From positions 496,001-560,000 of the forward strand of contig JAVTLE010000017.1 of the NCBI GenBank assembly GCA_033439295.1: a stretch of DNA of 64,000 bases. Reading direction: 5' to 3'. Within the stretch, counting starts at the first letter, position 1. Every line of letters starts with the position of its first letter. Shown one piece after another: positions 1-64,000 of this stretch. The DNA is from Deuterostichococcus epilithicus. Its lineage: Eukaryota > Chlorophyta > Trebouxiophyceae > Prasiolales > Stichococcaceae. Under the pieces are notes generated by a model that worked only from the letters and a program-made list of their open reading frames with translations, ran no database searches and had not been told where the DNA came from. Position numbers and translations under genes: made by a program.

Positions 1-1421
1 CTATCAGTCGTCCGGCTTCCTTCAGTTCATGAAGGGCCCGAGCGCCGACTTCGAAGTCGGAGCCCCGTACCTGACAGAAACGCAAGCTGCCATGCAGCAC
101 TTTCTGCAGGTGCCCCATCCCTGCTATCTCGATCGGTCACCCACGCCCCTCCCTCGGCCTGTGGACTGTGACACCTTGTTGGGGCCCTGAGGACGGCGTA
201 CCCATTCATTCATTCATTACCGCAGTCCTTGTTAGCTGTAACATGGCGACATGACTTCGTGACGCAGCCGCGTTTCACTTGTAGGGCTCCGGTTGCAGGG
301 TCCTGACCTTGCTGATGACAGTTGCTGGCGATGGCGGCCAGCGCCAGATTTTGCATCCAATATTGCTGGTGAGCCGACTCGAGCGCAGAATTATGTTGTA
401 GGTCGCCCCTCAAGATGTCACTTTTCTGCAGGTGCTGCTGATCAACCTGGTGCCAGAGGGCATGCTGGAGACGGCGGACCAGCTGCTGTCATACCGGGAC
501 AACGACGAGCGGGAGCTGCAGAAGCGTGCAGCCATCAAAGTGTCGCGGTACGTACCCGTCTGCCTGCTTACTGGCGCTGTCATGCTCACACCGGGTTTGA
601 CACTGACAAGCAATGGCGCTTGGTGACAGAACTATGGGTGCATCCGCGCACTTGCACGCCCAGATGTTGAGATGTGTGGCCTTCGTACAGCCTCACAGAT
701 GCGCTGGCCGCGGAGGAGCGCGAGAAGGCCTTGGTGGAGCGCGCGCTGGCAGCGGAGGAGCGCGCGCAGGCAGCGAAGGAGGACGCGCAGGCAGCGAAGG
801 AGGACGCGCAGGCAGCGAAGGAGGACGCGCTGGCCATGGCGAAGAGCGCCCTGGCCGCGGCGGAGCGTGCCCTGGCCGCGGAGAAGGAGCTCGAATTGCT
901 GAGAGCGAAGGTATACTGGCCAGCCACTGTGGGCCGCGTGCTTCTGCACTGCCTGAGGGAACCGATTGCAGTGCACTGAGCATTGCTTGGCATCAAGTGA
1001 AGGGCGCCAAGGCAATCGAATATTGGACCGTAGCCATGCGTCGTCATCTTTGCCAACCTCTAAGATGCTGCGTCTCAGGGGTCGAAGGGCGGAACTGACA
1101 GCAATGCTGCGGGCGCTGCCGAGGCCAAGCCGCTGTCGCCGGCGAGGTCGCCCAACAAAGGTGATCAATATTTCGAGTGTGTGCATGATCTGCCTGAGGC
1201 GGCTCCCAGACCGCCATGCCGCCCTGAGCGCGCCCGTGGCGGAGCGCTTGCCCGGGGGAGGGCAGGGGAAGACCTCTGCTTCACATCGGGCTTCTTGTCT
1301 GCATCTTGTTGAAAGTGACATCGTTCAGCAGGCTGTCCAGACTGTTCACGATGTCCTTGCATGTCCTGTAGTGTGGAGGGCGGGGGCACCAGGGGGATGG
1401 CGTGTACGCAGCAAGAAGTGA
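1..1421 (+). CDS. Coiled-coil protein, C-terminal part (5' truncated by window)
   Basis: Five exons fit in phase: <2-109, 432-547, 691-910, 1079-1160, 1372-1421 (TGA stop), giving 191 residues of a longer protein. All four introns are GT-AG. The visible N-terminal part (FLQFMKGPSADFEVGAPYL...) is globular-looking but not recognised. Exon 3 encodes a long Ala/Glu/Lys helix with heptad-like AAEE and AAKEDAQ units, almost certainly a coiled coil. The tail is Ser/Pro/Arg-rich and ends WRVRSKK, a basic C-terminus. A TGTAA motif, the usual green-algal poly(A) signal, lies at 1894-1898. The function is unknown. The exon structure is well supported because every junction keeps frame. The start is outside the window. 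Confidence 0.72.
770..832 (+). repeat. 21-bp in-frame tandem repeat, three units
   Basis: Three consecutive 21-bp units (770-790, 791-811, 812-832) are nearly identical and encode AAKEDAQ, AAKEDAQ and AAKEDAL in the coiled-coil exon. The repeat keeps the heptad length, so unit gain or loss would lengthen or shorten the helix without breaking frame. Confidence 0.85.
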
Positions 1422-2417
1422 GTATTGCTGCCCTCGTCACCTTCAGACAGAAAGGAAAGCAGCTGGAGCGAATTTGCAGGAGGATGTCGCCTGAAACACA
1501 GTTGGCTAGGTCCTGGGCGGCGAGGCCCTACTGCTGGGTCGGGCACCTTATGTGCGCCACTGCTCACGGTGCATACAGACCAACATGTTGCCCTGCCTAT
1601 CTAGGCAGGGAGCCTCGACAGGCACATACATGCCTCCACAGCGAATGACGTGTCTCCGTATTCTCATTGCAGGCCCGGCACTTGTGCACGCTAGGTTGCA
1701 TCAGTGGCATTTCAAGGGGCGGCAGAAACTGATCCGAACGTGCAACGCTGTCCAAACGTCATGGCGTAGACCTGTCATATCTTGTATTTCTTGGCCTCGT
1801 TCGACATCTGGGAATTGGCATGCAAGCCGGTCCTGCCTGTGACACTCAGGGACTTTAGCAGTTGGAACGTCATGACTGAGATTGCGACACCCCTGTAACC
1901 CAGCTAGAAGAGTTGCTACCTACAGCACACACTTTTTAGCGGCAACCTTCTTTGCGAACTCCTGATCAAGGCAGGCTGCTCAATTGTTTGAGTGGCCGAC
2001 ACTCTTTTGGCTGTGGGCTTTTATAATAAAGTGGAGGCTGTGGGCTTTAAGTTTGATCACCTTCGGTGATTCAAACTTATGCTGTCGTATCCAAGAAAAT
2101 ATGTGTTGACCTCATTCCATTCCATTTACCTACTTTGCAGCGTGAAGTTTATCAATGCTGCTTGACAAAAGGAAGGTACGAAGCCGTCAAGCGAGACAGC
2201 CTTGACACCAGCAGGTCAATTTGCATATCAATGCCAAGGTGTTGCGCCCCAGCATGTGCGGCTGAGCTGTCTGAGTTTTCCCCAGCAATGATGGCACATC
2301 CGTGCCGACAGTGCCAGCTGTGGCACTCGTCCCGCGAGCGCCCAGGCGCCGTGCCAGCCTTGAGCGACTGACGACCAGCAGTGGCGCCGTTCCACCTGCA
2401 ACCCGGCTGCCCGCTCT
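1422..2417. other. Convergent 3' flanks of genes 1 and 2
   Basis: No coding exon is supported here. The segment lies between the stop codons of two convergent genes. It holds the TGTAA motif at 1894-1898 for the upstream gene, an AT-richer patch around 2015-2050 with a repeated 'ggctgtgggctt', and a hairpin at 2049-2078. Confidence 0.55.
2049..2078. other. Hairpin between convergent genes
   Basis: An inverted repeat with arms at 2049-2061 and 2065-2078, a one-base bulge and a 3-base loop. It sits between two convergent 3' ends and would form in either transcript, so it may contribute to 3'-end formation on both strands. That role is inference. Confidence 0.5.
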
Positions 2418-5400
2418 CTACGCCAGCTTCCGTCGCGGCAGCGGCTTGCTGCGGCGTACAGCCTCCGCCTCTGACGCCGTCAGCGGTCGTGCCTTCCCGG
2501 ATGGCTTGGCCGCGTACGCGCTGCCGCCGCCCTGTGGCAATACATTGACAACCATACAAGTGTGTCCAAGCAAAGCCACACCTGCGCGGTCGTCATTGTG
2601 GCTGTGATTCTCCGACAGGCACACTGTTGGCCATACCCCTTGAGGCAGTCGTGGCCTTCGGTGTGCACCGGCGAATGGGGAAAGGCATGCCGCATGTCTC
2701 ACACAGGACGCAAGGGGCTCTTCAAAACAGAAGTCCAGAGGTTTCAGCCCGTGACCCGACCTTGCCCTTCTGGCGCGACAGCGGGTGAACCACCAGCGTC
2801 CAGCCGTCTTTGGGGCGCCGCGGCGGCTTGGTCATGCGGCTGTCGCGCCGCACGTCAGGCGCCAGCTGCAGGGCAAAGCAGAAGCAGAATTAACATTGAT
2901 GATCGGGTTGTCCAGTTTCCGTCCAGAATTTCGCCTACGATTGAGGGCGGGGTGAGAGGAGGAGCACATCGCATTCAACTCGAGGCTGGCGACCGCTGGC
3001 ACATCTGCCAGCCTTGAAGGACGCCAGCTGCCGGCCTGCCGGTTCTGCGGCGTTGCGTTGGACTGCATGATTGCAGGTGTATGAGCATCAACGTGCACGA
3101 GCTTCGAGATGCAGATCAGGCAGCCTTTAGGGATCAGGCAGCACAGTGGATGTTGCTGGCCGCAGCCTCGCAAGCTGCGCCCTGATGCCAACGATGTCAT
3201 CGCCTTCCGCTGTGCGCCAACAGAGGCGCCGCCGGCAATGCCGCGACACAGCAGCGCCAAACAGCAAGAGCAGCGGCCACGCAGCAGCGGCCAGCAGCTG
3301 CTGCGCAGCAGCAAACCGGTGGGCCCCAGGGTAGCCACTCCCCCCAGAACGCCCAGAGAGGCATCCACCACCGAGCCGGTATCGAGAGCGCGAGGTCGCG
3401 GCACATTCCCGAACCGCATGCTCCGCTGAGCATGCTCCATAGCCATTTCAGTCTTAAGATGACACTCAAATGGTCTCCTCCCAGTGTCTCCCTACCTGGC
3501 CCATGTTGAAGGCGAGGCGCGCGGCAAACTCCTTGACAGCATGCTCCTCTTCCTCCTCCGCCTGAGACTCCGCCAGCACCTCCAGCTGCTCTGCCGTCAG
3601 CCCGTCGAAAACCAGCCGCCCATCATCGCCCTCCTGTCAGCGTCAGGGAAGCGATGCGAGTGTTCGGCCAAGCGTCAGAGCAGAGGAAGGACCCAAGAGT
3701 TGCGCAAGTTGCCGCCTGAAACCCCGCCAGCTGCTCGGCTGTGGGCACGTTATACACCAGCCGCCCGTCCCTGCCCTCCTGTTGTTCTAGAACTAGGTGC
3801 GAGTGTTATAAAATGTCTGCAGCCGGCACGCACGGCTGCCCGTCTTTGACCTCATCTTTGGCAGCCCGAGGGTGCCGATGAGGGCTCAAGGCCCGCAATT
3901 TCAAAATGGGCGGCGAGCGCACGCTGTCGCCAGCACCTCCAGCTGGTCCGACTGCAGCCCGTTCAAGACCAGGCATCCGTCCTCTCGCGCTTCCTATCAG
4001 CGCAGCGTTCTGGAAGAGCGTCCAAGCGCCTGCCCTCACCTTGAACTTGGGGATGGAGGGCAGCAGCTTGACGTGCCGCTCGTCGGTGCCCTCTGCATAG
4101 ATGGCCTCGTGGATGTCGTGCTCCATGATGTCGTGCACCTGCGGATGCACACGATCGCATGACCAACAGCTGTCCGGTTTCGCGAGAGTGAAAGTACCTG
4201 TCCCCCCATGTCGTGCAGCTGCACAGGCGGCACCGGCACCACACTCCCCAAGAGCGCTGTGTCACCATAGTGATGAAGGCCCCATCACCCAAAAAAAACT
4301 AAACCCTAAACCTAGGTGGTTGCATCCGTCATGAGGCTGGCCATGCGGTGCCTAGGTAGACCAAAGCCCGGGCCTCTGCAGTTGCAGCCGCACCTCCGCA
4401 AGGACGTCCAGGGCATGCATGTCCTTGATGAACTCGTCGAGCGCCTCCGGCGTGCCGAGCTCATCCAGGGACGCCTCTCGGCCCCGCTTCTGCGGCGTCT
4501 GCTCCTCCGCGGCGCCGCCGGCCTCGCCAGCCGCGGCTGCATTTGCCGCTTCCGCTGCTTCACCTGAACTCCCCACGTCCGCCACCCCCGCAGCGGCAGT
4601 GTCGCCATCCGCCGCAGGGTGAGCCGCTGCGTCGCCGGAAGCGCCGCCATCGCGGGCCGCATCGCCATCGCCGACCTCTGCCGCTGACGCCTCCGCGTCT
4701 GCCGATGCCTCGGCTGCATCGCCGCCGCCTGCCTCCCCGTCTGCCTGCCCTGCTTCCTCCCTTCCGGTCGCCGCACCGCCTGCAGCCGCCGCCGCTTCTG
4801 CTGCCGCCCACTCCTCCACCTCTCGCTCTGCCTCTGCTTCTGCTTCCAGCTGCTTCAGCGCCAGGATGGCCATCACTCGCTGTTGTCGGATGCGGAACAG
4901 CTTGGCCAGAAACTCCGGCGTGCACCTGCAGTCAGTGGTGGGAGCGAGGCTAGCACACTGCCGCTGCACCATGCCGGCGAAATGCTCGTAGGTAGACTGA
5001 AAAACCCAAATCGGAGCCGCGCACTTCTGTGGCCTGGTGCGCCACGGAGTGTTGTGCCTCGTGCGACAGCAGCGCATTCTGCACGGTGTTGGGCCCGACA
5101 CAGAGCATACAGCATACACAAGTTCTATAACGAAGCAAATTCCTTGGGGAATTTTTTCGAATGAGGTGCCCCAGGAAATACTTGGCCTCCTCCGACAGCC
5201 GCCGACCAAGAGTCTTTGAGCCAGCTTTCCGCCTTTCGTCCACGCCACACTCACTATATGGGAAAGGTTGGTTGCACGCTCACTCTTTGGGGAAGGTGGC
5301 GGCAAGGTGCGCCATGAACTCCTTGGCCTCCTCCGACAGCAGCGCGTTCTGCTCGTTGTTGGGCACCCGGCCCCCCGTGAGGTCCAGCCCCAGGATCGGC

Positions 5401-6921
5401 ATGCACTGCTCCTCGTCCACGCCCATGATGTCCCAGCCGCTGCGCCCCTGGCCCGCAAGGTTGGGGATCGGCGGCGCCCGCTCCGGGCCTGCGAGCGGAA
5501 GGAGGCAGAAGCGTTTGCAGGAGCTTCAGAACCTCATGGGAGGTGTGACCAAAGGCGACAGGTGCCCTGATGCTCGTTGACGCCTGTCACGTCCCAACCA
5601 CTGCATCCCACGCAGACGAGGTGCGGGGTTGGCGGCGTCTGCTCTGGGCCTGCAAGCACGACTCAAGTTTTGAAACTGAAAATTGATTTTGAATTGTAGG
5701 TTCGATGCATGAAATCCATTCATGCATCGTTTCTGGTCGATGCACATGATGTCGCAGCCCCAGCGGCTGATGTGCGCAAGATTCACAAGTGGTGGCGCCC
5801 ATTCTGGGCCTGCCCTCTGCAAGTTGCAGGGAATGTGAAAGCATGCAGATAGCACAAGCATGCACGAGGAAGCAACTGCTCCATGGTAGAGTGAGCGACT
5901 CCTCGAGCCGAGCCTCCGCTTCTCCGCTTCGTCAACCTGCGTGCGGTGCTGCGCCTCAGCCCAGCCCCCTACCCCCTAGACTGTGGAGAACAGGAGACTC
6001 ACGAGGGCCGAGCCACCACTTCTGCGCCTCGTCAAATTCCTCGCGCAGCTCCGCTTCGGCGCTGAGCCCCGACGGGTTTTCCGCCTCCTCCGCAGCCTCC
6101 GCATACAGCGCCTCTGCAGCCTGGGCGTACACGTTGTAGTGCTCGATGCCGTGGTCCAGGGCCTCCAGGAGATCCTCCTCCGAAGCGTCCTTCAACTGCA
6201 GTTTGGAGTCGGAAAACAATGATTGAGAGCGTGAACAGCACAGAATGTACACGTTGTAGTGCTCGATGCCGTGGTCCTCCATGTGTCCCGGAAACGCTGG
6301 AAAATGCCCGGCACGGCTGGGCTTGCCTTTTCAGGGGCCTGAGGTGGAGGATGCGGCGGCATCGGCGGATCATTGCCTCTGTCGACCATGGAAAACAAAT
6401 GCAACACCACATGAAAAGTCATGTCGCACAACAACCATCGCGCATGCATGTGTCAGCTGCTGCCTGGCGCCCCCGGGCGTGTGGAGTTGGCGCCAGTCTG
6501 GCAGTTGGCGGTCTCATCGTTGCAGTTACATGCGTTTGTCACAAAGAAACAGCAACACGCCCACCGCTTCCTGTTCCTCCTCGGAAGCGATGAGCTCGAC
6601 GGCGCCGTCAGTCGCTCGGCCGCCATGCTGCTCCCTGCCGTCACGCTGGCGGCCTGTCGCGAAACGCCTGCTGCCGGATGCACCACCCGCTTGGAAGGTG
6701 CCTCCAAACTCAGCCTGCACGCCTCCCTGAGGCTGCCCAGCTCTAGAGCTGCATGAGGGTGAGCCGGCTGCAAGATGGCCGGCGTCCTGCAACGCGCAGC
6801 TACTCGCGGCGAGCCGCAGCGCATCCGAGACGAAGCTCGCCGATTGTTGGGAGCTTTCGATCGCGTTGGCCACGCCCTGGAGGCGTGCGAGCAGCCGGGC
6901 GGAGGTTGCAGCCCGGAACAT
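2418..6921 (-). CDS. Putative mitochondrial ribosome protein, Bot1p/plant GAMYB-binding type
   Basis: Ten exons on the minus strand: 6921-6565, 6195-6003, 5488-5284, 4925-4394, 4218-4198 (21-nt microexon), 4138-4040, 3633-3496, 3425-3372, 2865-2761, 2531-2418. Every junction is in phase and the total is 1818 nt, 605 aa. The N-terminus (MFRAATSARLLARLQ..., then RRFATG) is a typical mitochondrial presequence. The core CTPEFLAKLFRIRQQRV is an HTH-like segment, followed by an acidic Ala/Glu/Asp linker, then VHDIMEHDIHEAIY...LPSIPKFK, EEEEHAVKEFAARLAFN, RRPKDGWTLVVHPLS and a C-terminal SKPLPRRKLA. This order matches my recollection of plant proteins annotated as GAMYB-binding, related to the Bot1p/mS45 mitochondrial ribosomal family. 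The family call is from memory of motifs, not a search. Several introns carry decayed copies of adjacent exon edges. Confidence 0.72.
3708..3990 (-). repeat. Two decayed copies of the following exon (3496-3633)
   Basis: The intron upstream of exon 3633-3496 holds two degenerate copies of its start. On the minus strand the real exon reads GDDGRLVFDGLTAEQLEVLA; the copy near 3710-3785 reads GRDGRLVYNVPTAEQLAGFQ and the one near 3895-3985 reads REDGCLVLNGLQSDQLEVLA. Only the copy nearest the next exon continues into a full in-phase exon. Confidence 0.75.
5034..5213 (-). repeat. Two decayed copies of the donor-side edge of exon 5284-5488
   Basis: Segments 5159-5213 and 5034-5099 repeat the 3' end of exon 5488-5284. 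The exon encodes NEQNALLSEEAKEFMAHL; the echoes read RLSEEAKYFLGHLIRKN and NALLSHEAQHSVAHQATE. They lie downstream, within the intron, and are no longer bounded by in-phase splice sites. Confidence 0.75.
5585..5817 (-). repeat. Two decayed copies of the acceptor-side edge of exon 5284-5488
   Basis: Segments 5585-5659 and about 5749-5817 repeat exon region 5423-5498 together with its acceptor ('gggcctgc' on plus), at a spacing near 160 bp. They lie upstream of the working acceptor in the intron. Confidence 0.7.
6247..6277 (-). repeat. Exact 31-bp copy of exon segment 6127-6157
   Basis: Bases 6247-6277 are identical over 31 bp to 6127-6157 within the exon encoding HGIEHYNVY. They are 120 bp apart, with the copy in the intron. 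The perfect match suggests a recent duplication. Confidence 0.85.
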
Positions 6922-7936: not shown

Positions 7937-10900
7937 TCACAATGATCGCTGGCTCGCGCTGGGCCGGCGGTTTCCACCGAGCGCGACCACCGCCGCGCCC
8001 AAGCTGCCGTCGCCGCCGACGCTGCTCGTGCCGCTTGGGAGCCGGCTGCCGCCCAGATCGCCGAAGGAACTGCTGCCGCCGGCTGCACATGTCATTATGG
8101 CCACAGGCCTAAGCAGGACCTCACAGGAGCTGCAGACAACCCCATGCATTGCCGACCACCTCGGTCAAAGCTGACGCCATTTTGGCAAATGGAACCATGT
8201 TCAACAGGCAGAGATAGCATGTGGAGAGCATGCAACAGCCAGCGAGTGCCGCTGCCAATGCTTCCTCGCAATGCATGCAACAGCACAGACCAGCCCGCAG
8301 TAGCATGTCTGCCAGGCGCCGTCAGTGGCTGCATGTTCAAGCCGACGATGGCAGGGCGCCGGAGACGATGGCAGGGCGCCGGAGGCGTGCAGACCCAAAC
8401 CCTAGATCACCAAAGCACCCACCGGTAGTGCTGCTTCCGCTGCTGTGCGGCGTGCGTGGCGTGCGCGGCGTTATGAAGCCGCCGCTGGCCGCCCGGGCTG
8501 GCGCAGGCTTGGCGGCGACGTCGGACTTGCCCTTGCCCAGGTAGCCCATCGCCCAGGCCATTGCGCCTTCGAAAGCCATTGCAAGACCCTTGTTTCCAGC
8601 AGCAAGAGCAACGCAGTCCCAAGAGGCAGAAGAGGGGCTGCTGCAGCACGGAGAGACAGGCTGCACTTGCTTGGTCGGCAGTCAGCACGGCATTCAGCGT
8701 TGAAGCCCTGTAGCAAGCATTCAGCAACCTAGGCGATGCAAGCATCCACCTCTGGCGGCGCCAGCCAAGGGTTCTGCGACTTCCGCCTTGCCGCCGCCGC
8801 CACTGACCGCCAGCAGCCCACCAGAGGTAGTCCGCTGCGCAGGGACCGCAGTGCGCACTGACGGCGGCCGCCGGGGCCCCTGCATCGAAGAGAAATCGTG
8901 CAGAGTTGTGTGAGGGCTCTGTAAGGGTTGATCGGAGACGGCGGGTGTCTCCAGGAAGCATGTGACATTACAAGTAGCAGCACCGCACTGACGAGAGGCG
9001 GTGAGCCTGCTGGCACGGCAGACCAGGGCTGATGGTGAGGGCGATGCACTGAGCAGGTTTGTCCTACAGAAGCATGCAGCTCAGCATGGAGATGTGAGAG
9101 GCGTAGTGAGGCATGGGTGTGCTCACCGTTGAGCTCGCAGATGAGCCGCCGCTGCGCTGCGTTTGAAGCCCGATGCCTCCAGAATCTGCAGATCAACAGC
9201 TCACGACACTCACACAAGGGGCGCCAACTACATGCCAGGGCAATATTCGATTCGACACATGAAGGCAGCACGGTGTTCAACACTACTCTGTGCACGAGTT
9301 TCCCTTCACAAGCCTTCACCAAGACGCCTTGTGACACAGCCTCTTGGTTCTTTCGAACCCGGCAATGCATAGTGAGATGTCGAAACAGCAGCGGGCTGCC
9401 GGAGCCGGGAGGCATGCCCGGCGCCATTGGCAGGGGAATTGTTGTATAGGATTGCCGCTGGTGCCTGGCCACAGTTCACAGTTCCCGACGAATCCCCGAT
9501 GCGAGATCACAGAAACCAGCAGACCAACACCTGCAACCCCCCCTGCAGAGACCATCGCTGCTTGGAATCAGGTGGCATTGTCACCTCCCACGTTGGCGGT
9601 GGCGGTGGCGCCGCGGATCGCCGCCACGCGCGACGCCGCCAGCACCTGGCTCAGCGGCACGGCGGCCGAGGGGCGGGCGCCGCCGCTGCCACTTCCGCCG
9701 GCGCGCTCAGAGTCCGAATCATCCGCACTCCAGATGGCGGCGCTGCAGGTGGTCTGGCGGCTATGAGTCCGGAGTTCATCAATTGCAGGTGTTTGCGCAG
9801 GGCGGGCCGGGCAGCAGAGGGTGCGAGACGGTACGTCCATGGCGCCAGGGAGCGTGAAACCCAGAGCGCCCACAGCTTCCCGCCCGGCTGACCAGACATG
9901 CCAGAACTTGACCTGCTAGCATCCAGAAAAACTCATTACGATGCGGCGCGGGGAAGGGGCAGGGGGTGCACACCTGCCATCGCGGGGGGCGGCAGGCGGC
10001 GCCGCCGCCGCGCGCGCCGCCACCCGCAGCTGGTGCACCCGCCGCCGCCGCTCGCCCAGGGTGCGCTCGCGCGCCGCCAGGTCGGCGTCTGCGGCCGCCA
10101 CCGCCTCCGCCGCTCGCCTACAGAGGTTTTAGGGTTTACTAGCCGAGTTTTCCCTGAAACCCCGCATACCCCTGCTCGATACTTCCTGATGAGGCGTGCT
10201 GTCTCGAGACCGGCCCGTGAACGGAGGTGTGCTGTTTGAAAACCAGCATATAGCGGAGGAAATACCTGGGGGGGGTGGGTGGGAAGGGGCAAAGCTCACT
10301 GCACGGCGGCTTGCTTGTCGGAGCGGCGCAGCAGCGCGGCGTCGAGCGAGCCCTGCAGCCGGCCGGCCTCCGCCATCAGGAACTGCCTGTCGGCGGTCGC
10401 CTCCCGCAGCCCGCCGACCAGCTTTTCCGCCTCCGAGCGAGCCGCCTTCGTTTTCCTGCAGGTCCAGGCAAGCCGAGGCGGTCAGAATCAGTGCACACCG
10501 CCCTCATGCTGCAGCCTGCCTGCGCCTCACCCCAGCCTGCTGTCAGCCAAAAGGCGAAAGCCCGGTTCCGATCCGGAACAGGGCGCACCGCTCGGCGGCA
10601 AGGCGCGCGGCGTCCGCCCGAAACAACTCCTGCTGCAGCCGCTCCACGACTGCCATCAGCTTGTTCATCATGTGGTCCTCGCCTGCGGGTGGCACACGAG
10701 CGCGACTGAGCAATCCCCTGCTGCCGCAACGCAAGCTGGATAAAAGTAATGTACGGAAGCAGGCAGGCCTGCCGCAGGCAGACACACCAGGCGACGCGCA
10801 GCAGGCATGCTTGGGCCTCGGACTCTCAAACATCCCCGGATGTCGGGAAACCCGAGCTCAAATGAGCTGCAGCCACCCCCCTTTGCTGCAGTCGTTCCTT

Positions 10901-43918: not shown

Positions 43919-43998
<80 letters not shown>

Positions 43999-49091: not shown

Positions 49092-50507
49092 AGCTCCTGA
49101 GGCTTGATAGCGTGGAATCACTCGCCAGCAGGCATGCTGCACTGCAGCAGGGCTGCCGGAAGTCGCCTTGGGCGTGGTGCTGCCAGTGGGTCGTGGTGCT
49201 GCAGCGGCCAAATTGCCTCCTGACCACGCCTGTCTACCAAAAGCTGTAAAATACTCCAATGTAGCACTCGAAATTGTACATGACGCCACCTCATACCATC
49301 CTGTGCTTGACTCGACCGCCCTCCCAGGGAAATTAAGCGTTGACTGCTGCGATCCGGCGGCAGAGGCTCAAAGATGACGCGGTTTTGAATTCACTACCGT
49401 TTTAACAGAACCGAATGGTTTGCGTTGCTGCGAGCGTTTCGCATTCGCTCACTTCAATTTGGCAGCTTGGTTGGTCCAAGCATCGCTCGAGTTTTGTAAA
49501 ATACAGCAGATCGCCGTTCAGGGCTACACACGTGTGGAATATCATGTGACATCTCAGATACTCTTCCTGGATCGCAGAACCGCATGGGCAGCCGAGCACC
49601 TCGGTGCTGCACAATGCCTGAGCTCGTTAGTCAGCGTTGCGTACAGGAAGTGGACAAGGGACGAACATGAAATGCTGCAGGAAGTACTTCCTGGGTCTCA
49701 GCTGTTGCGCACTGGGGCGATGTGCACTGTGCCACATCGCGCGGGCATCTGTTGCGGCTAGGGCGAGTGTCAGAGGGTCCAATACGCCGCGCTGCTGCAA
49801 GACCGGCTGACACACGCGAGGCGGGCCCGTCCAGCGCTTCCGCAGGTGCGTATGACGCACCGGCCGTTCGACGGATGCGGAGCAAATCGGTGTTTAGGGC
49901 CCTGCGGTGGCTGGTCTGCCTTGTCAGCGGATCCAAGCACGGATACTACGAGGGCAGAGCGGTGGCCTAGATGGTCTGGGCAGCGACAGTTGCTGCGAGC
50001 CTGAGGATAGACGGGGCTGCGGCTCGGGCAACGGCCGTTTTGGTCGCACCAGTGGCGCAGCAGCCGTTGCCCGGCCCTTGCCTGCTCTGTACGGTCGACA
50101 TGCAGCTGTTCGTGCGGGAGGCGATGTGCCTGCGCGTCTCCCGGGCAGCTTGACTCACTGCCCGAGGGCGATGCTCTGACCAGATCCTACACTGCTCTCG
50201 CTATGCAATGGCGAGACAGCCCACGATCAGCTGTTTTCTGATGACTGGAAGCCATACCGGGGGTTGCTGAACAGTCACGGATGTCTGCCAGCAGTCGGCA
50301 GGCGCTGCAGCTGAAGAGCATATAGGGCGACCTTCGCGACAGTGCCCAGCGTGCATGCAAGCTGCAAGTCCAAATCGCATTGCTGTGCACGTCCTCGGAA
50401 CGTTGCACCTAGAACTTCTGGCTCGTCTTGCCTGCAGGTGAGACACCACACGCAGCGGCAAGCTTCCCTGCCGGCAGGCTTTGCGCGTTCAGAGGAGTCA
50501 GTGCAAC
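49092..50507. other. Divergent intergenic region between kinase and beta-helix gene
   Basis: 1.4 kb between two divergent start codons. No exon supported on either strand; open stretches lack coding-like composition. Presumed to hold both promoters. Confidence 0.5.
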
Positions 50508-53500
50508 ATGCGGGGCGGACACCGGTTGGCGGGCCTGCTGGCCCTGGCGCTGGTGGCGTCACAGCTACCGGCTGACACGATCGCACAAGGCGCCAGCGCC
50601 GGTGGCCTCGCAACGGCGCCGGCAACAGCAACAGCGGCAGCGGGCGGCGCCACAGCCGCCGCACCGGCTGCCTCGCCGCTGTCGGCCCAGAGCATCGCCT
50701 CGTCCATCAATGGCGGATCACTCGGCACAGTTTCCACAGGTGATGCCAGCCAGTGGCTTTGTCAAGCACTTCGCCAAGGATTCTGACACACCTTGGTGCA
50801 TGCGCATGGCCTAGGGCTCGCGCACAGTGCTCGCCTGCTGTGCATCATGGCGGCCCACCTAGCTTTAAGGTTTGCTGCATAGGTCGCCTGTCACCAGGCT
50901 CGGTGACACGTAGGCGAGCTGCTCACGGCAGTTTCACCGCAAGGCGTGTGCCGATGGGCTTCGTCTCAACAGAATCTGCAGCGAATTTTTTGACTTGATC
51001 CACAGGCATCACGACGGCGCCAGTGGACCAAATGATCACCAAGCCGCCGCTGAAGGCGGTGCCGGTGACGGTCACGCCGCTGGCTGCGGCGCCGGTTGCG
51101 CCCCGCACCCGCGGCGGCCTGGCCACCTGCACATTCACCGTGCGCGGCACAGGTGTGGATGAACATTGTCAGATCCAAGGTTATTAAATATCAGGCCCAC
51201 ATGGTTGGCCTGCTGCATGTAAACGGATGTTGGCCAGCGCGCCTCGCGGAAAACCTGGGAAAACCCAGGACATTGCCGTACGTTTGCAGGTCGTGCGACC
51301 GGCCCACAGGAGGCCATCAGACGCCGCGAGGCGCACTTGACCCGCCTGTCGCGGGCCTCATGCCCCCACATCATCCCCTGCGCTGACGTCCCGTTGTAAC
51401 ATACCTCAGTGAAGTGTGGCTGCGCCTCCGCTGCAGCCTCCGCCTCCAGCGCCACGGGCACGTCGACGCCCGCGCAGGCGTCCGGCTCGGCGACCATCTC
51501 GTGCAGTGGCCCTGGCGCGCCGCTGACGGTCTATGGCGCCGGCGCCTCGTCGACCAGCTTCAGCTCCCGGCTGACAGGTGTGACGCACCATATGCAGACT
51601 GACGGATGCGCTCGATCTCTGGCTGCACTGGACCCGCCTCTGAGGCCGGCAGCCAAAAGCGGCTGTGGGCGTCAGCCGCGCGTCCTGGGTTGGCGGGACA
51701 GGCCGCCACTCCTGCTGCCGGCCGGCCCGGAAGCTCAGCCCTGCTTGTTGGCCCGGAGCCGCCTCACGCACCAACGCATGCCCAGGCTGCAGGCTCGCTG
51801 CCGTCGCGCGTGCACACAGTGGCAGGCGCCAGGGCTTCTGACACCCGCACCAAGCAGCGTGCCTTGCGCCACGCAGGCGTGAACTTCGAGCCCAACACGC
51901 TGCCGGGCCCGCGCGGCGTGCTGCAGTTCGTCAACGCCAACGTGCGCATCGTCAACTCGGAGTTCTCCAATCTGGCCGGCACGCCCTACACGCTCGTGTT
52001 CAACTCCTCCAATGTGGAGTTTGTCAACACCAGCTTCACCGGCAACACCGGTGCGTTGCCAGCCCCCCAGGCCTCCCTCAACCTTCGGTTCTTCCTTCGC
52101 CTACTCGGAGCCTTGAGATCCTCCGTACCGTGTGAAGGCGTCTGCATGCTGCGCGGCAGCTGTTCGCCGCTTGCGTCGCCATGGCTGGCATGCAGCATGT
52201 GGGACGCTTCCAGGGTGCGCTTTGTGTCCGGCTGATGCAGGTATGGTGATGCAGGTATGGATGCAGGGCAAAGGGGATGCCGTATGCACCGCAGCCTGGA
52301 CTTTGTAATACTTCATGCAATCGGTGCAGATGGTGCCTGACATTTACACCTGTCTCGAGAGCTGGGAGTCTAAAAGGCTTAGTTGATGCGCAGGCATGTT
52401 TGTGGGGCGTTCATGGCTCTGGCTCCACAGCCCAATCGACCCCGACTCCACGGCCAGCAACAGCTGGTTTTCAGGTTGCAACCAAACGAAACCCTCGCAA
52501 AACCCTCGCATGCTTGCATCTGCAGGCACGCCGGAGGGTGTGATCCACGGATTCGGCTCCGCCTTCACTTTCACCGGCTCCAACTTCACGACCAACAGCG
52601 GGCGGCAGACGGGCGTCATGACCATCGAGGACGGCTCCGCCGACTTCACCGGCTGCATCTTCAACAGCAACCAGGGCGCACAGGTGGGCTGGCATGCGAC
52701 TCTTTAGACGGCGGGCACGGGCACGACAGGAGTGGGCACGACCCCTTCCTGCCTGTGCTTTGGCTATCAGATCTCCATCACGTACCCAAGGCTCAAACTG
52801 CGGATCCCGGCGCCGCACGCACCTCGTGCTTTCAACCTCACACCCGACTCCCAGCATGCAGCCCTTCGTGTTGACTGGCGTGATGGTGTGTCTGGCCTGC
52901 AAACGCAGTCGAACGCCGGCGCCCTCGTGGTGGGGGCGGGCTCCTCCGCCAGCTTCACCACCACCCAGTTTGTCGGCAACCAGGGCTCTGCCGGCGGCGC
53001 CATCCTGGCCTACCAGGGCAGCCGCCTGAGCATCGACCGGTGCACCTTCGCGCAGAACACGGTGCGCCGCCGCCCTCGTCTCCTCCGCTGCCGTCCTCGC
53101 TGCTCTCTGAAGTCTCGCCCCCTGAAGCCGGCTGGCCAGGCGCAGCAGGTTGCAATCGTCAGCAGGGCGTGCTGCTTGCTGGGACTGCCGGCCCTTCCTG
53201 GGAGGGCTGCAGGGTGTTGACAGCACTCTCCCATTCATTTGCTGCGGCGGCTGGCCGGCGCTTGCACTACAAAAAGCAGGACTGAGCGCGGCTGCGGCGC
53301 TGCAAAGGGCCGCCAGCAACGGCTGTGCGATCCGGCAGCTCGGCTGCCAGTCGCATGCAAGCCACAAGGCTGCCCTGACGCCGGCCTGCGCATGCGCAGG
53401 TCGCCAAGACCAGCGGGGCGATGCAGCAGCTGGGCGGCAGCTGGGGCATGGCTGGGGCATCTCGCTCGTTGCATGCACCCGCAGAGCAGTCCCAAAACGC

Positions 53501-56500
53501 TTCTGCCACCTGCGCAGGCCACCAACAATGGCGGCGCGATCCAGCACCTGGGCGGCAACATCACCATTGCCCGGTCGTCCTTCAGCATGAACTCGGCTGG
53601 CGCCATCGGCGGCGGCTACTTTGGATCTGACGTGGTGCGTTTCTCACTCAGTTCTCTGCCAGCAGCTGGCTGCTGACAGTGCTTCAGTGCCCTTCAATGC
53701 AAGCGATTCTTCTCGCAGCGCCTGCGTGGCGAAAATCAACTAACAGCACCCTGCACAATGGTGCAGCTGCAATGGCCCTGGCACCTCAAATGTTTGTCAA
53801 CCCTGCTGTTGCATTCTACATGTCCGCAATTCGGCGGCAATTCCAGCAGCAACGTCCTTCACTGCTGGCACTGAACCATGATTCAAAACCTCTGGACACC
53901 TCTGGACATGGACTGGCCGCAGCCCCAACGGCGACCTCCTGAACGACAGTTGCCGGCAGTTATGCAGCTGCGGCGGCCTCAAAAACCCTGAGCCTGCATC
54001 TCCCTGTGGCTGCAGACCGGCAGCATCTCCAGCAGCGACTTCCTGAACAACACGGCGACCGCCGGCCAGGGTGGCGGCGTGTACCTGGAGTCTGTCATTG
54101 TCGATGTCATCAACACCCGGTGCGCCCTCATATGGATGCATTGAATACCGGCTGCAGCGCTGGCGTAGCTGCCGAGAGCTGAGCCACACTGCAGCGTTTG
54201 CATGCCATGGTCGTCATGTAGCAGGAAACTCCTACCCACGACCCTACCAACACTGCCAGTGTTGAACATCAGCGTTGCCCACCATGTCGAAGAATGTTGT
54301 CTGATGCTGCTCCCTGCTCTGCTCCCCATACCGCCCAGAGCCCTGCACAGCATGCAGCCAGTGTTGCAGCCGGCGCCGGTGCCGCCAGCCGTCCCGACCC
54401 CACTGGCCCGGCCCCGTCTCGACATGGTTCCTCTCTGTGTCGGCGCAGGTTTGCGGGCAACAACGCACAGGCCGGCGGCGGCCTGTTCGAGCTGGACGTC
54501 GAGGGAACCGTCGACCAGTGCTCCTTCGAGAGCAACATCGGCTCCTCCTCCGACCAGAGCTTCGGCTCCGGCGGCGGCCTCAGCCAGAGCGGCGGGAGCG
54601 GCAACGTGTCCAACTCCATCTTCGTCGGCAACATGGTGCGTGGCAGCTCAGCAGAAACCGGATCGTCGAGTCGTGGCGCCGCTCTGCTAACCTAGCAGGG
54701 GCCAGAAGGCTGGCATACTTTTGCAGTCTGGCCACTCTTTTTGCAACACGGCAGCCCGTTTTTGCACTGCTCTGGCACTGCCCCGAGTCCTGCCGCGCCT
54801 CGGTTTGCTGGCGTGGCGGCCCTCCCCCTGCGCCGTCAGCTTGCATGGGGGAGACTCAGCACGCTTTGGCAAAACTGCTGCGGACAGCGTCCAGCGTCAG
54901 CCAAGCCAGGGGGGTTCATTAATTTCTCATCGAATGTGGGCTGCGGCCCGTTGAATGTGGTAGACACTGTGGCTCGCCATATCCCTACGCGTGTGTTGCC
55001 TGATCACCGTTATCATCTCCCTTCGCAGGCCCCCAACCTGGGCGGTGGACTGTACCAGAACAACCGCACCGGCGGCGTCTCCTCCTGCATCTTTGCCGAC
55101 AACACTGTCACCCTGGACTTCTCCGGCCAGGTGCGGCGTCCAGAACCCTGGCGATTCCGGCCTTAATGAAGGACAGTGCAACTCCCAAGGCAGCCCTCCG
55201 CGTGGACTGTGCGGCCTTCAAGATGCCGCCAGCGGGATGCCGCCTGTGCTGGGCGGTGGAGTTGCCTGCGTGAGGCTGAGCATGCACTTGCGAAGCTGCT
55301 GGCCCAACACCTGGTGCCACCGCATGGCAATACCCTGGTCAAGTGTCGTCTTGTAGCTGCCGCAAGCAGGTTACGGTATCGGCTGACTGGCCCTCGAACG
55401 CTGTGATGATGCGCAGGGAGGCGGCATGTTCCGCAGCGGTCTCAACGGCGACGTGAGCAACATCTTCTTCGAGAACAACAATGCCGCGCTCAGCGGCGGC
55501 GGCCTCTTCGAGGTCAGCCATCGCCCTGCCTCCGGCCGTCCTGCACATAGTGGTGCCACGCTCATGCAAGGCCTGCGCCTGCCAACATCAGCAACTGTGC
55601 ATCGTCCTGCCCGACAGGATGTAAAGCCCAGGCCCTGAAGCTACAACAAAGGTCGCCACCGTCGGCGGTGCCAGCGCGCACCGTCCGTGGTGATGTTGCC
55701 GGCACCGGCTCTTCCTTGAGTACTCGGCTCGGACCATTGACTGAGGCTCCGCGCATTCCGCCGTAGGTTGCCACCATCGGCGATGTCAGCGACTGCACCT
55801 TCCTGTCCAATGCTGCCGGCACCGACGGCCCTGCGGTGTATGCCTTCAACTGCGCCGGCCGCATCTTCAACAACGCCTTCGCCAACGAGCCCGTCAACGC
55901 GGTGCGCTTCCGCACTGGCATCACGGCTGCTCCGTCTGCACCATGGATCGGCGATGCACCTGCGCCGTGAGCTGTGCCCATGACCCATGAACGCATGAGC
56001 CGTGTGGCCGCAGCGGCCAATGGGCGACCCCGCAGGCGGTGCCGCGCGTCAGACGACGAGCTTCTGTGCCTGTGTGCCTCGATTCATGCCCTGTGTGCAT
56101 CACATGAGGCAGGCTCAATCACCACAGAGGCTCCACCTGTGCGTGTCGCAGGCTGGAGTGCTCGCTGCGCTCGCTGCCGCAGCCGCTTTATTGCAACATC
56201 AGCTGCTGTCGCCGGATCCTGTGCTTGAATCTGGGGTATTCAAGTTACCCTAAATAGTTGCTTAAACACCCCTACCTGAATTCCGTAGGTGGCCATCGAC
56301 CACTCCATCGGCTTCACGGAGCGGTCGCTGATCACCGGCACCATCTCCGTGGCGGCGCTGGGCGGTTCGCCGTCAGCGGCGCCCGCCGATGCCACCGGCG
56401 GCCTGCCCGGCGCGACGGCGGCCGCCCCGCGGCTGCCACCGTCGGCGCATCCGCCACCGGCCTGTGAGCGGCCGTGGGGGCAGCTGCAGAGGCGACTCGT

Positions 56501-57347: not shown

Positions 57348-60300
57348 ATGAACGATCTTTTGGGAGCCGTCAAGGTGCGCGGACGCATGGAGGCGTGGCT
57401 GTGTAGGACGGCGGGCGCTGTGCCTGTACGCTGAACTCACCTGTCTGCTGCAGACAGCCAATCGCAGCAGGGTCTGACTTCCACCTGCTCGTTGTGCTCC
57501 CGTCATCAGTGCCGCATGCGATGGGCGACCCCAATTGGCGCTTCGGCAATCCATAAGGACCTTCAGATGTGCGATGCAAGTGGTGGCTGGACGAAGCGGC
57601 GGGACTGACGCCCATGGCTTGCACAAACCCGTCTGCGCATCAGAAGCTTCATCGCAGCGGTCGTGTGGCCCGCTACATGGCGCACTGCACCATGCCACAG
57701 CACTTGCTCGGCGCTCTTCGGATAGCTGATGCGCACGTTCGTGCAGGGCCGTGCAGGAGCCCAGCGCGCAGCACGTTTCTCCGGCTACCGGCTGCACACT
57801 CTGTGGAGTGCCGCGCCCAAACTGGTGTGTGCATGATCACAGGGCGGCAGGGCGCCGCCACCGCCGCCGGGATATGGCGATGGAGGCGTGCCGGGGGCGC
57901 CGCCGCAGGAGAGCCCGGACAAGAACCTGGACGACTTCTTCGGGCAGGTCGCTAACATCAAGGTGGGGTCCCTGCCGGAACCTCGGCAGGCACAGATGTG
58001 CTCTCGTAAGCGGATGTGCTATGGATATGGGCCATGCTCAGGAAACGAGAGCTTGGGCGGTGGAAGCGCTGCGCTGCACTGTGAGAGACCTCCGCTGCTG
58101 TCAGAGCGACATAACGGGGACCTGAACCATGGACCTCAGTCTGCTACAGCAGCAGCCGCCGCATGAAGCCGTGCCGTTGTGGGAAGCGCAACGATCTGTC
58201 GCATCTGACCCGCTCTGCTGCTGCGGTCCCTGCAGAAGTTCTGCACATTCGTAAGAGCCACGGCACGCTGCTGCGGCAGATGCTGGTGCCTGCTCTTATG
58301 CCTGATCTAACGATTGATGCGCTATTCTAAATTTTCTAATCTTTGGTTCAATCTCCGCAGAACCTGCTGGCGTCCATCCGCAAGAGCCAGGGCAAGCTGC
58401 AGGAGTCGCACGAGCGGTCCAAGGTCGTCACCCGCGGCGCCGACATGCGCACGCTGCGCGACGCCATGCAGGTAGGGCTTGCTTGTATATTCCAGAGTTT
58501 TATCTCCACAAGGCAGGTTCAAGGCAATGCCATGCGAGCGGGTTACAGGAACCGGCAGGCGGATTGGTGTGGTGCAGCCGTGACCTCCTGCTCCGGTCGC
58601 AGCGGTCTGCCATCCACACTTGCGTCGGCCTCCAGATTCGACAGCTGCACCACGCTTCAGGGGCGGAGCCGCAAGGGCCGGCCAGCTGTGGGTGTGTTCC
58701 TGGGGCGGGGCTGCCTGGCCGGTTCGTCGTCCTGATTCTGCGAGCCATGGCCGTGCATAATTTGCACGCCGGCAACATCCTCGGGGTTGAAAAGGACGGC
58801 GCATGTCTGCGGGGGTCGAGCCGCCGCAACCTCACAGAATCCGCGCTGTGCGGCCGCAGCAAGGAGTGTAAACACCTATAACCCCTGGGCCGCAGGGCGA
58901 CATCAACGAGGTAAACAAGACGGCGCACGTCATCAAGGCGCGGCTCGAGAAGCTGGACGGCGACAATGCCAAGGCGCTCAGGCAGCCGGTGCGCCCCTGT
59001 CTGGGAGGCAGCCACCTGCTGCTTGCATGAAGTGCCTTCATGCCTTAATGCTCAGGCGACAAAGCCAAGGCGCTCCGGCAGCCGGTGCGCCCTCAAGAGT
59101 CCAGGAGTGTGGGAGGGGGGGGGTGCTTCTTTTGAGAGATGGCTTCATGCCTTGGCGCTCAGGTGGCACGGCGTGCGTCACGCTGCATGACATGCATCTG
59201 CTTGCATGTCCGCGGCTTGCTTGTTGCTTGCGCTTGCCCTGCTCGTAGGCGACGCGCTGACCCGCAGTCGTCACAATCACCCAGCAACAGCGATGCTCTG
59301 AGCGCGAGCTAGCAGCGCCACTTGTCAGCAGGCCCTGGCGAGATACATGGTGCCTTTGTGCATGCATGAGGGGCTGCCATGAAGTCGAGAAAGATTGGTG
59401 CGGCTTTCATGCCGCGCTGCCAAAGGGGGACGGGCTGGGCACCGCCTGATACTGCTCCTGAAGCACAGGCGTAAATACAATTTTCCAACACCAGCATCAG
59501 CATGACAGGGGCAAATTTTGGTACAACTCCTGAGGCACAGCCATGATTACACTTTCCCAACGCTAACATCAGCACGAATGTCATGCTGTCGCAGGGCTGC
59601 GGGCCGGGCACCAGCAGCGAGCGCACGCGGACGGCCATCACGGCGGCGCTGCGCAAGAAGCTGCGCGACCTGATGGGCGAGTTCCAGCAGCTGCGGCAGC
59701 GCCTGCAGGACGAGTACAGGTGCGAAACAAGGGGGAGATAGTACATCTACAAGGAGTGGGTTTGAACGAAAGTGTCAGTGCACCCCGTTGGCGAGCTCCA
59801 GCAGCTGCGGCAGTGCCTGCAGGACGAGTGCAGGTGCGAATTATGGGGGTGAAACGCATGCGCAAGGGAAGGGATTCGACGAAAGCGCTGATGCAACCCG
59901 ATGGGCGAGCTCCGGCAGCTGCGCAGCGCCTGCAGGGTGCATGGATGTGTATGGGGGCTGCAGGCCTTGCACACGGGCATCGCTGGGGGTCTCATGCGGA
60001 ACGCATGCCAAAGCAACAGGAAAGTGGCTCTGAGCAAGTGGTCAGATGCATAAAGGTAGCGGGACGCCAGGTGACACTGCAGCGCCAAGTCATGCTGTAA
60101 AGCTCGGCAGGCCTCTAACTCACCGCGTGACGAGGTCGCGACGGCTGCACCCTGCACAGGGAGGTAGTGGAGCGGCGGGTGTACACCGTCACTGGGCAGC
60201 GCCCGGGCGAGGAGGAGGTCGAGCAGCTCATCGAGACGGGGGAGAGCGAGACCATCTTCCAGAAGGCCATCCTGGAGCAGGGGCGCGGCCAGGTGCGTGA

Positions 60301-62856: not shown

Positions 62857-63910
62857 ATGAACGACCTTCTCAGCATCGTGCAGGTGATTGCAGTCGCATG
62901 CATGCGACGCCTGGCACGCAGGTGCTGCTGAGTGTGCATCTGCAATTGTAGTCATGTCCTGGCGTCGAAAGTCTGGCAGGACCTTCACACTCAACGTACT
63001 GATGTATTGTGCAGCCTCTCTACTGAAAGCAATGCCTCCTCACCATGCGCATGGAGAGCCACCCACGTCTCCAATGCTGTCCATCACACACCCGCGTCAC
63101 ATGGGCTACCAGTGGTCATGGCATCAGGAAAGATCAAGTTTGACTGCCACTACCACCACAGCAATGGGCTTAGTGCAACGCTGAGGTTGATGCGCGGCAG
63201 GGAAACAGACTCGACTCTATGCTGCCGGCGTCTGATGGGAGCGGCGGCACGCCCGTTGGCGGCGGCACCGCCGCCGGCGCCAATGCGACTCCAGGCGCAG
63301 CAGTAGGTGCCGGCGCCCCCCCTGGCGACCTTGACGGCTTCTTTGCGCAGGTCGCTGACATCAAGGTGGGCAGGAGCATTGCCTCTATTGAGGGCAATGT
63401 GGAACCTATCCGCATCAGACAATGCGCGGGCAGCTGGACGACTGAACGAGTGCCGCACTGATGCGAAGCCTGCCCGCAACCCATGCATTGCCTGGCACAG
63501 CTGTTCTAAGTGCGCCGCCGCCAGGCGCATGGGCTGCCGCAATGCACCCTGTGATGGCCAGGCGGCTGGGTAGGCAGCTTCGGGACACACACAATCGGCG
63601 CGTAAACACGACAGCAGAGATGTCAAATCGGATGCAGATTTCTGCTCCCCACCGGACCGCAAGATCTGTTGCTGGATAATTGGCAGGATCCAGGCGGCGG
63701 TAACAAACTCAGGACAGGAGCAGGGCATGCATGATCTCAGCCGCTTCTTGGCACATGCTGATTGACGGGGCAGTACTGGATGCTGGATGCTGGCTGCAGG
63801 AGGTGCTGCTGGACATCCGGCGGGGGCAGGCGGCGCTGCAGGCGGCGCACGAGCGGTCGCAGGTGGTGACGCGGGATGCCGACATGCGCGCCATCCGGCA
63901 GGACATGCAG
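62857..63910 (+). CDS. Second Qa-SNARE (syntaxin), 5' part, cut by window end
   Basis: Three exons: 62857-62883, 63201-63365, 63800-63910, in phase, 101 codons. Starts MNDLLSIVQ, parallel to MNDLLGAVK in the upstream gene. Exon 1 (27 nt) and exon 3 (111 nt) have the same lengths as the paralogue. Exon 2 has a Gly/Ala/Pro-rich insert and then DLDGFFAQVADIK, matching [13 protein letters not shown]. Exon 3 reads EVLLDIRRGQAALQAAHERS and TRDADMRAIRQDMQ. The SNARE motif and anchor lie beyond the window. After exon 3 the intron would start GC (cag|gcgact), where the paralogue has GT. Either this is a GC-AG intron or the exon runs on. Confidence 0.82.
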
Positions 63911-64000
63911 GCGACTGCACTAATATCGCCTATGAAACGTCAAACGCTGAAACAAATCTGGTTGAATACGGCAGCAGCAGGCTGTCTCTTCTGCTCTAGC

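Follow-up and report, generated by a model that had tools for sequence, protein, structure and literature searches.

The window analysed here is a 64,000-nucleotide stretch of contig JAVTLE010000017.1 of the green alga Deuterostichococcus epilithicus. Gene models built for it, five of which were checked by homology, gave 109 predicted introns. Numerous introns hold decayed copies of the exon edge that they adjoin, here called echoes. Thirty-one pairs of exon edge and echo are distributed over a predicted chain at 2.4-14.5 kb (5), an ankyrin gene (8), the genes of alpha-SNAP (5), NAD kinase (3) and a protein kinase (2), and a chain comprising a putative 'beta-helix' gene and a syntaxin gene (8). 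Of the genes named in the initial annotation, the ankyrin, alpha-SNAP, NAD kinase, kinase and syntaxin genes and the 'beta-helix' chain carry echoes; the names 'mitochondrial-type', ARM and beta-helix are putative. A Pfam scan of the three plus-strand frames of 44001-54002 gave no hits. A tRNA scan of the window with the bacterial setting found none, and viral contigs searched with an alpha-SNAP fragment held no relative. The gene finder mistook an echo for an exon at no fewer than two places (22855 and 48578) and probably also at 38514, and N are scattered in the window. The features are as follows, with spacings in nt.

5897-5968, minus strand: donor-side echo of 5996-6070, spacing 102
5563-5657, minus strand: acceptor-side echo of 5402-5496, spacing 161; another at 5721-5765
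5164-5202, minus strand: donor-side echo of 5305-5343, spacing 141; another at 5031-5094, spacing 270
6247-6277, minus strand: copy of exon interior 6127-6157 (31/31) without splice site, spacing 120
20078-20158, plus strand: ankyrin gene exon edge with donor 20138, real copy
20236-20318, plus strand: donor-side echo of the 20138 edge, spacing 158
20396-20434, plus strand: acceptor-side echo of 20524-20562 (37/39) in the same intron as the 20236-20318 echo, spacing 128; rest of unit without significant similarity
20734-20784, plus strand: donor-side echo of 20637-20686, spacing 97
21200-21261, plus strand: acceptor-side echo of 21288-21349, spacing 88
22393-22481, plus strand: donor-side echo of 22267-22353, spacing 126
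22851-22918, plus strand: copy of 22974-23041 (61/68), spacing 123; predicted exon, probably an echo of the exon start near 22978
22714-22760, plus strand: second echo of the 22974-23041 stretch, spacing 269
23421-23483, plus strand: acceptor-side echo of 23561-23622, spacing 140
30893-30946, plus strand: alpha-SNAP, acceptor-side echo of 30995-31048, spacing 102
31087-31130, plus strand: alpha-SNAP exon edge with donor, real copy (PDB phmmer)
31211-31254, plus strand: echo of 31087-31130 at 124 nt; no significant similarity past the core
32337-32369, plus strand: alpha-SNAP, acceptor-side echo of 32484-32516, spacing 147
37282-37344, minus strand: NAD kinase exon edge with acceptor 37341, real copy, bearing the GGDGT stretch
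37422-37485, minus strand: first echo of acceptor 37341, spacing 141; GGDGT changed to GGNGS, 1-nt insertion (frameshift)
37535-37586, minus strand: second echo of acceptor 37341, spacing 258
37847-37896, minus strand: NAD kinase exon 5' edge with acceptor 37886, real copy (NAD_kinase Pfam)
37963-38006, minus strand: first echo of acceptor 37886
38055-38105, minus strand: second echo of acceptor 37886; has letters in common with the first that are absent from the exon; intron half repeats
48429-48485, minus strand: protein kinase exon 5' edge with glycine-loop, real copy
48567-48623, minus strand: first kinase echo, spacing 138; called an exon by the gene finder
48738-48766, minus strand: second kinase echo, another 130 on
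53393-53439, plus strand: putative 'beta-helix' gene, acceptor-side echo of 53511-53557, spacing 118; another at 53308-53347
53911-53948, plus strand: putative 'beta-helix' gene, acceptor-side echo of 54015-54052, spacing 104
55650-55707, plus strand: putative 'beta-helix' gene, acceptor-side echo of 55765-55824, spacing 115
58959-58996, plus strand: syntaxin exon edge with donor, real copy
59055-59092, plus strand: echo of 58959-58996, spacing 96 (36/38 identical); intron half less similar but recognisable, with indels; p 0.069 in a second test
59676-59738, plus strand: syntaxin exon 3' edge with donor, boundary 59719/59720, real copy (Syntaxin and SNARE Pfam hits)
59790-59852, plus strand: first echo of the 59720 donor edge, 114 nt downstream; repeat runs into the intron half (TRF 114 bp x 2.4)
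59893-59936, plus strand: second, partial echo of the 59720 donor edge, another 114 nt downstream

We compared each exon edge with its own intron at a local score of at least 32. Strong similarity was present at 12 of 109 donors and 17 of 109 acceptors, i.e. at 29 of 218 edges in 24 introns, one of them (68) mis-modelled. The controls gave 0/1090 donors and 1/1090 acceptors with non-adjacent introns, 0/109 and 0/109 with reverse complements, 1/545 and 0/545 with dinucleotide shuffles, and 0/732 and 3/732 (3/1464 together) with introns one to four places off in the same gene; one of these last three matches lies four introns downstream and scores up to 40. The excess in adjacent over non-adjacent introns that the initial annotation had expected is thus present in this window (29/218 edges against 1/2180 non-adjacent comparisons). 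Independently of annotation, direct 11- to 14-mer repeats at 80-170 bp far exceed the inverted-repeat background. Ungapped diagonals with a score of at least 16 and a corrected complexity filter gave 31 direct pairs within 40-400 bp and no inverted one, and no inverted copy appeared in this search at a score of at least 14 either. Ranges of the same width starting at 1000, 2000, 3000 and 4000 bp held a mean of 0.25 direct pairs. In a separate far-diagonal scan and in some of the pair scans, the complexity filter was too strict, and pairs that were long or of lower complexity escaped it.

Chance resemblance, repeats in the proteins or errors of assembly have next to no claim on these copies. 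GC-rich exons do resemble one another slightly, as seen on far diagonals, the ankyrin gene encodes repeats, and N occur in the window. Nevertheless, the controls stand at 0-0.2%, and most copies differ by 10-30% with indels, unlike assembly errors. Chance combined with GC bias is rejected by the adjacency controls and the far diagonals. Alpha-SNAP, NAD kinase, protein kinase and syntaxin genes do not usually encode repeats.

A looser search, scored without a control run, yielded 34 pairs in 29 introns, or 31 pairs in 26 introns without introns 7, 42 and 77, whose pairs were poor in complexity or identity and which are left out of the pair statistics together with the mis-modelled intron 68. 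Fifteen pairs are donor-side and 16 acceptor-side. Exon-edge copies in adjacent introns are real and affect about a quarter of the predicted introns, fewer than the 'introns throughout' of the initial annotation. At the other edges, 13 of 170 had a rank p below 0.05 where 8.5 were expected, with a paired p of 0.21; given the absence of a significant residual signal there, we do not claim that all intron sequence consists of echoes.

First-order spacing has a median of 123 nt (IQR 113-134), with more distant copies at 209-270. The range of 90-165 proposed earlier was about right, as 27 of 31 pairs lie within 80-165 and the rest at 209-270. A repeat of the whole unit, exon half plus intron half, is clear at syntaxin 59720 (114 bp, 2.4 copies) and at NAD kinase 37886; by one alignment, the intron half also repeats in part at 58989. 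Similarity continues significantly into the intron in 4 of 34 pairs by one test and in 9 of 34 by another. Extensions on the exon side are significant in 1 of 34, a sharp stop, and the intron side trails more often (4/34). The splice site is reached by 24 alignments, and 22 of them stop no more than 14 nt past it, as measured with a query that contained at most 22 nt of intron.

Alignments that end so near the splice site would suit a process in which repair or replication re-copies 25-80 nt of exon edge to a place about 123 nt away in the adjoining intron, by templated insertion or template switching, without duplication of the stretch between. We regard such copying as doubtful but take it seriously, since several high-identity copies lack significant similarity over the remainder of the unit that one would expect: 20396 (37/39), 6247 (31/31), 23421 and 45643 (23/25). 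The near absence of intron-intron and intergenic pairs also speaks for it. On the other side, it does not readily explain why the spacing is so narrow or why further copies lie at 209-270, the intron half forms part of some units, and introns gain about one spacing rather than one copy length, a measure that is confounded. Template switching can also yield inverted copies, and none was seen at a score of at least 14.

The copies have decayed largely as non-coding DNA. Mismatches by codon position amount to 85/475, 72/474 and 119/476, a third-position ratio of 1.51, where a constrained exon paired with a freely decaying copy is expected to give 1-2. Gaps occur in 14 of 31 pairs. The donor GT is intact in 7 of 11 echoes and the acceptor AG in 10 of 13, and neutral decay predicts about 65%. 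From this mismatch pattern, the common gaps and the survival of splice dinucleotides we conclude that the echoes are mostly non-coding fossils with neutral-looking decay. Selection on echoes as decoy or alternative splice sites, or as mutually exclusive exons, would be highly improbable judging from the same sequences. The 17 of 24 intact dinucleotides could be read in its favour but are near the neutral value, and 21200-21261 and 37422-37485 differ from their exons mostly at third codon positions (9/12 and 8/12), although the ratio for the set is only 1.51 and the latter echo carries GGNGS for GGDGT and a frameshift. Real acceptors outscore echoes (p 0.008), whereas donors do not differ significantly (p 0.13). 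For the set as a whole, coding or functional echoes are rejected; single pairs such as 21200-21261 could differ. Mutually exclusive or duplicate exons would keep frame and change mainly synonymously, at odds with the third-position ratio and the gaps taken together.

By class, the pairs on ungapped diagonals (score of at least 16) comprise 24 exon-intron, three intron-intron, three exon-exon, one exon-intergenic and no intergenic pairs. A uniform neutral process would leave far more intron-intron and intergenic duplicates than these, a shortfall that implies either faster decay of intron DNA, which would have to be at least twofold, or copying biased to exon edges. Constant-rate simulations gave an exon-intron share of 45-48% at equal decay and up to 76% with fivefold faster intron decay. 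They were set against a 29:1:0 tally made by hand from the ungapped-diagonal pairs at a spacing of 80-165, in which duplicates were merged, mis-modelled exon-exon and exon-intergenic pairs entered as exon-intron, echo-echo pairs were set aside and a lone intron-intron pair at 72 nt was kept. Constant-rate neutral tandem duplication was rejected at all decay ratios tried, most weakly at fivefold (P 0.0024). About half of the detectable exon-intron events should score above 35, compared with 2 of about 29 in the hand tally, and the simulations fit only if the events are older than about 0.15-0.25 substitutions per site. TRF and ungapped diagonals showed no duplicate in the window that is young along its whole unit. 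The 'continuing' duplication of the initial annotation is supported by neither result. Assembly collapse of identical repeats could hide young copies.

Gene conversion could likewise produce the contrast between well-preserved exon halves and eroded flanks, if working exons had kept old tandem duplicates similar at that half. High-identity cores in otherwise eroded copies with unrecognisable flanks, such as that of 31097-31130, are what it would leave. We judge it quite improbable: conversion should refresh intron-intron pairs too, yet these are nearly absent, the identity between real edge and echo is modest, and echoes in triples share letters by eye with each other that the exon lacks. In five triples, echo-echo identity in the exon-derived part is 67% and exon-echo identity 75% and 74%; in the intron-derived part echo-echo identity is 0.44 to 0.74, from an alignment without a background to compare.

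Our preferred reading is that the echoes are probably fossils of local head-to-tail duplications of about 90-160 bp that span one splice site and belong to a past epoch rather than to ongoing activity. Local tandem duplication is supported by the adjacency controls, the direct orientation, the narrow spacing with further copies, the letters shared among echoes and the repeated intron halves in some units; its proposal over chance similarity in the initial annotation holds on these grounds. The copies are direct, adjacent and limited in spacing, and their decay is non-coding. The further steps are inferred. A duplication over a splice site would create two exon edges and two splice sites, and selection on the reading frame would retain the copy contiguous with the exon, which for donors is the one upstream and for acceptors the one downstream. 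The unused copy would become intron and decay without constraint, and, as the shared letters suggest, a decaying unit may now and then be duplicated again. The exon half would remain recognisable for longer as the working exon hardly changes, while the intron half would decay in both copies. That the working copy is the nearest acceptor or the most upstream donor, as the initial annotation stated, held in the cases examined; the rule follows from preserving the reading frame and is therefore not separate evidence. One difficulty for tandem duplication lies in the high-identity echoes without similar flanks, where a whole-unit duplication of the same age should show them; the small share of pairs with significant intronward similarity and the rarity of intron-intron and intergenic duplicates also count against it. 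As to origin, the spacing lets us guess at slippage or flap ligation on an Okazaki or nucleosome length scale. It is conceivable, but we would not expect it, that this lineage has a duplication process preferring exon edges, in which the intron next to a junction receives a new copy of it at a constant distance of about 123 nt, which the length of nucleosomes or Okazaki fragments may determine.

Introns with zero, one and two echoes have median lengths of 276, 398 and 514 nt, about 120 nt more per echo. This effect on medians beats the nulls 'any intron of at least 150 nt' (p 0.0005) and 'at least 200 nt' (p 0.0014) but not the length-proportional nulls (p 0.07 and 0.16; on means, p 0.53 for the last null). 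The gain per echo is confounded by length and no more than suggestive of the view in the initial annotation that duplication 'drives intron growth'. Small tandem duplications across splice sites would be one concrete route to longer introns; to our knowledge, intron lengthening without transposons is poorly documented. If an exon-edge-preferring process were at work, a large share of intron length would descend from neighbouring exons and not from transposons. Echoes may also be datable, with the exon as anchored reference and the echo as a nearly neutral clock, so that each records one duplication together with its size and age. Should the pattern hold across the genome, one assembly would allow a direct measurement of intron growth and duplication rate, and species could then be compared.

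Among the matches listed in a literature search, titles and the beginnings of abstracts mention no copying of exon edges into adjoining introns in green algae. The genome paper of Chlorella variabilis NC64A may mention something similar, and novelty is thus not established. Minisatellite-type tandem arrays grow by slippage or unequal exchange. The echoes resemble them in their head-to-tail copies, some apparently derived from earlier echoes, but are few and diverged and nearly confined to cases in which an exon edge is one of the copies. Introner elements, known from algae, form dispersed families common to many introns and share with the echoes a large-scale change of introns. Unlike introners, the exon edges compared here match almost only their own intron (1/2180 non-adjacent; few far-diagonal pairs). 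Intron gain by tandem duplication has in common with the echoes an intragenic tandem duplication, a duplicated splice site and a preserved ORF, but the echoes need no new intron position, and their repeat occupies an edge of a longer intron instead of making up the whole of it. That each intron arose in this way from an exonic AGGT segment is scarcely credible: although the raw event, tandem duplication within a gene, is the same and is documented (PMC3443670), the model predicts that intron length equals the repeat unit, as opposed to a spacing of about 123 nt and a median of 415 nt for echo introns, and the echoes of an edge adjoin that very edge. We reject it on this geometry. In the potato RdRp gene, a tandem duplication over an intron-exon boundary made a new intron, and relatives and RNA-seq placed the event (PMC4974935). 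That case is a single event that produced a new intron, whereas we find, from sequence alone, many old events at existing splice sites, with copies inside longer introns at a typical spacing of 123 nt.

The initial annotation proposed that introns in at least seven genes carry decayed copies of the adjoining exon edge. Such copies, here called echoes, are borne out by own-intron matches set against controls. With a local score of at least 32, the exon edges at 12/109 donors and 17/109 acceptors matched their own intron (24 introns in total, five with both edges matched), whereas exon edges matched non-adjacent introns in 1/2180 comparisons, shuffled introns in 1/1090 and reverse complements in 0/218. 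For introns of the same gene one to four places off, matches numbered 0/732 at donors and 3/732 at acceptors. A pair of these matches sit one intron upstream and are tentatively attributed to echoes modelled as exons; the third, four introns downstream (score up to 40), falls outside this attribution. Edges without a detected echo gave no significant residual signal. Independently of annotation, counts of repeated 11- to 14-mers rise to a peak at 80–170 bp in direct orientation and show none there in inverted orientation. Ungapped diagonals (score ≥16, corrected complexity filter) yielded 31 direct pairs within 40–400 bp; four control ranges of equal width, starting at 1000, 2000, 3000 and 4000 bp, averaged 0.25, and no inverted pairs reached this score.

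The whole analysis covers the 64 kb of this window, where introns are abundant and GC content is 57–72% in 2-kb steps. Its genes and base composition suggest a green-algal lineage; one search of viral_contigs with an alpha-SNAP fragment turned up no relative. A self-trained gene finder predicted 7 chains, some of them several genes merged, with 116 exons and 109 introns (median length 315 nt); the predicted introns mostly have the donor consensus G/GTG(C/A)G (slash, splice site) and end in GCAG. Homologues were found for five predicted proteins in PDB phmmer and Pfam searches: alpha-SNAP by phmmer (E 9.2e-45), and NAD kinase, protein kinase, syntaxin with SNARE and ankyrin by Pfam. The Pfam search gave no family for a sixth (2.4–14.5 kb chain). 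The 'beta-helix' gene keeps its name from the initial annotation; the protein-level searches covered the six proteins above. A perfect (CTG)25 run at 43922–43997 reads as poly-glutamine in the predicted C-terminal part of the kinase. Of 20 N window-wide, single N and short runs are scattered within GC-rich sequence at 11428–11936, which suggests a low-quality assembly consensus there. TTTAGGGTTTA, which we take to be the plant-type telomere motif, occurs four times with 0–1 mismatch (0.08 expected):

4300–4310, minus strand, TTTAGGGTTTA copy
10128–10138, plus strand, TTTAGGGTTTA copy
34673–34683, minus strand, TTTAGGGTTTA copy
35784–35794, minus strand, TTTAGGGTTTA copy

These copies may be telomeric seeds remaining from break repair.

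The own-intron controls above apply to the score of at least 32. A looser search gave 34 pairs in 29 introns; excluding three introns of low complexity or low identity left 31 pairs in 26 introns, 15 donor-side and 16 acceptor-side. First-order spacing between exon edge and echo, seen in 27/31 pairs, was 88–161 nt (median 123, IQR 113–134); the other four pairs lie at 209–270 nt. The exon part of the copy measures 19–87 nt, except for one of 176 nt from a mis-modelled exon. The splice site is reached in 24/31 pairs, 22 of which stop at most 14 nt past it, and seven pairs are confined to the exon interior. Towards the exon, similarity stops abruptly (significant in 1/34 extensions); towards the intron it trails off more often (4/34). 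In a syntaxin intron, a 114-bp unit is present 2.4 times with both its exon half and its intron half repeated. Two further repeats were observed. The direct pair at 59447–59577 (45/59 identical, 72-nt spacing) is wholly intronic and the sole intron-internal pair with score ≥16 that could not be linked to an exon edge. In the NAD kinase N-terminal region (38378–38555), a 47/56 repeat at 122 nt is predicted to be exonic in both copies, encoding GATLEWE.. twice; one copy is probably an echo.

Mismatches at the first, second and third codon positions were 85/475, 72/474 and 119/476; the ratio for the third position is 1.51. A free copy compared with a constrained exon should give 1 to 2, and coding constraint a much larger value. 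Gaps occur in 14/31 pairs, and the splice dinucleotide is intact in 7/11 donor (GT) and 10/13 acceptor (AG) echoes, neutral decay predicting about 65%. The ratio, the gaps and this near-neutral survival rule out living coding copies for the set as a whole; two pairs are rich in third-position mismatches (21200–21261, 37422–37485). Real acceptors score higher than their echoes (p 0.008), whereas donor scores did not differ significantly (p 0.13).

By eye, in the triples (exon edge plus two echoes) of NAD kinase, kinase and syntaxin, the echoes have common letters absent from the exon, so either an echo unit was re-duplicated or the exon was altered later. Across five triples, exon-derived identity was 75% and 74% between real copy and echo versus 67% between echoes; intron-derived identity was 57% and 46% versus 56%, with far more gap columns. 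Echo–echo identity differed between exon- and intron-derived parts (nominal p 0.012, on raw alignment identities). The difference suggests one of two things: similarity fades more quickly in intron DNA, even between two unconstrained copies, or some events left the intron half uncopied.

We compared detectable pairs with simulated neutral duplications at constant rate. The simulated exon–intron share was 45–48% at equal decay and up to 76% with intron DNA decaying five times as fast; the observed ratio of exon–intron to intron–intron pairs was about 29:1 by hand tally, the raw pairs being 24 exon–intron, 3 intron–intron, 3 exon–exon and 1 exon–intergenic. About half of simulated exon–intron pairs, but 2 of about 29 observed, scored above 35. 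The data fit under either of two conditions: a minimum event age of about 0.25 substitutions per site, or one of 0.15 if intron-derived DNA also decays at least two times faster. This absence of young events could likewise be produced by identical units collapsing in the assembly. A process copying exon edges alone is also possible, since several high-identity echoes have no recognisable flanks (20396–20434, 6247–6277, 23421–23483).

The initial annotation also suggested that the duplications drive intron growth. Median intron length was 276 (n=79), 398 (n=21) and 514 nt (n=5) for 0, 1 and 2 echoes, about one spacing of extra intron per echo, as expected under duplication. Null models requiring only room gave p 0.0005 and 0.0014 on medians, whereas length-proportional nulls gave 0.07 and 0.16, the latter becoming 0.53 on means. 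Because the p values differ by null, a lengthening of introns with echo number is only suggestive.

Introns are known to arise by tandem duplication of segments within genes (review, PMC3443670). The closest case found is a potato gene in which the duplicate spans an intron–exon boundary (PMC4974935). In this window, like events appear to have recurred at many existing splice sites, lengthening rather than creating introns.
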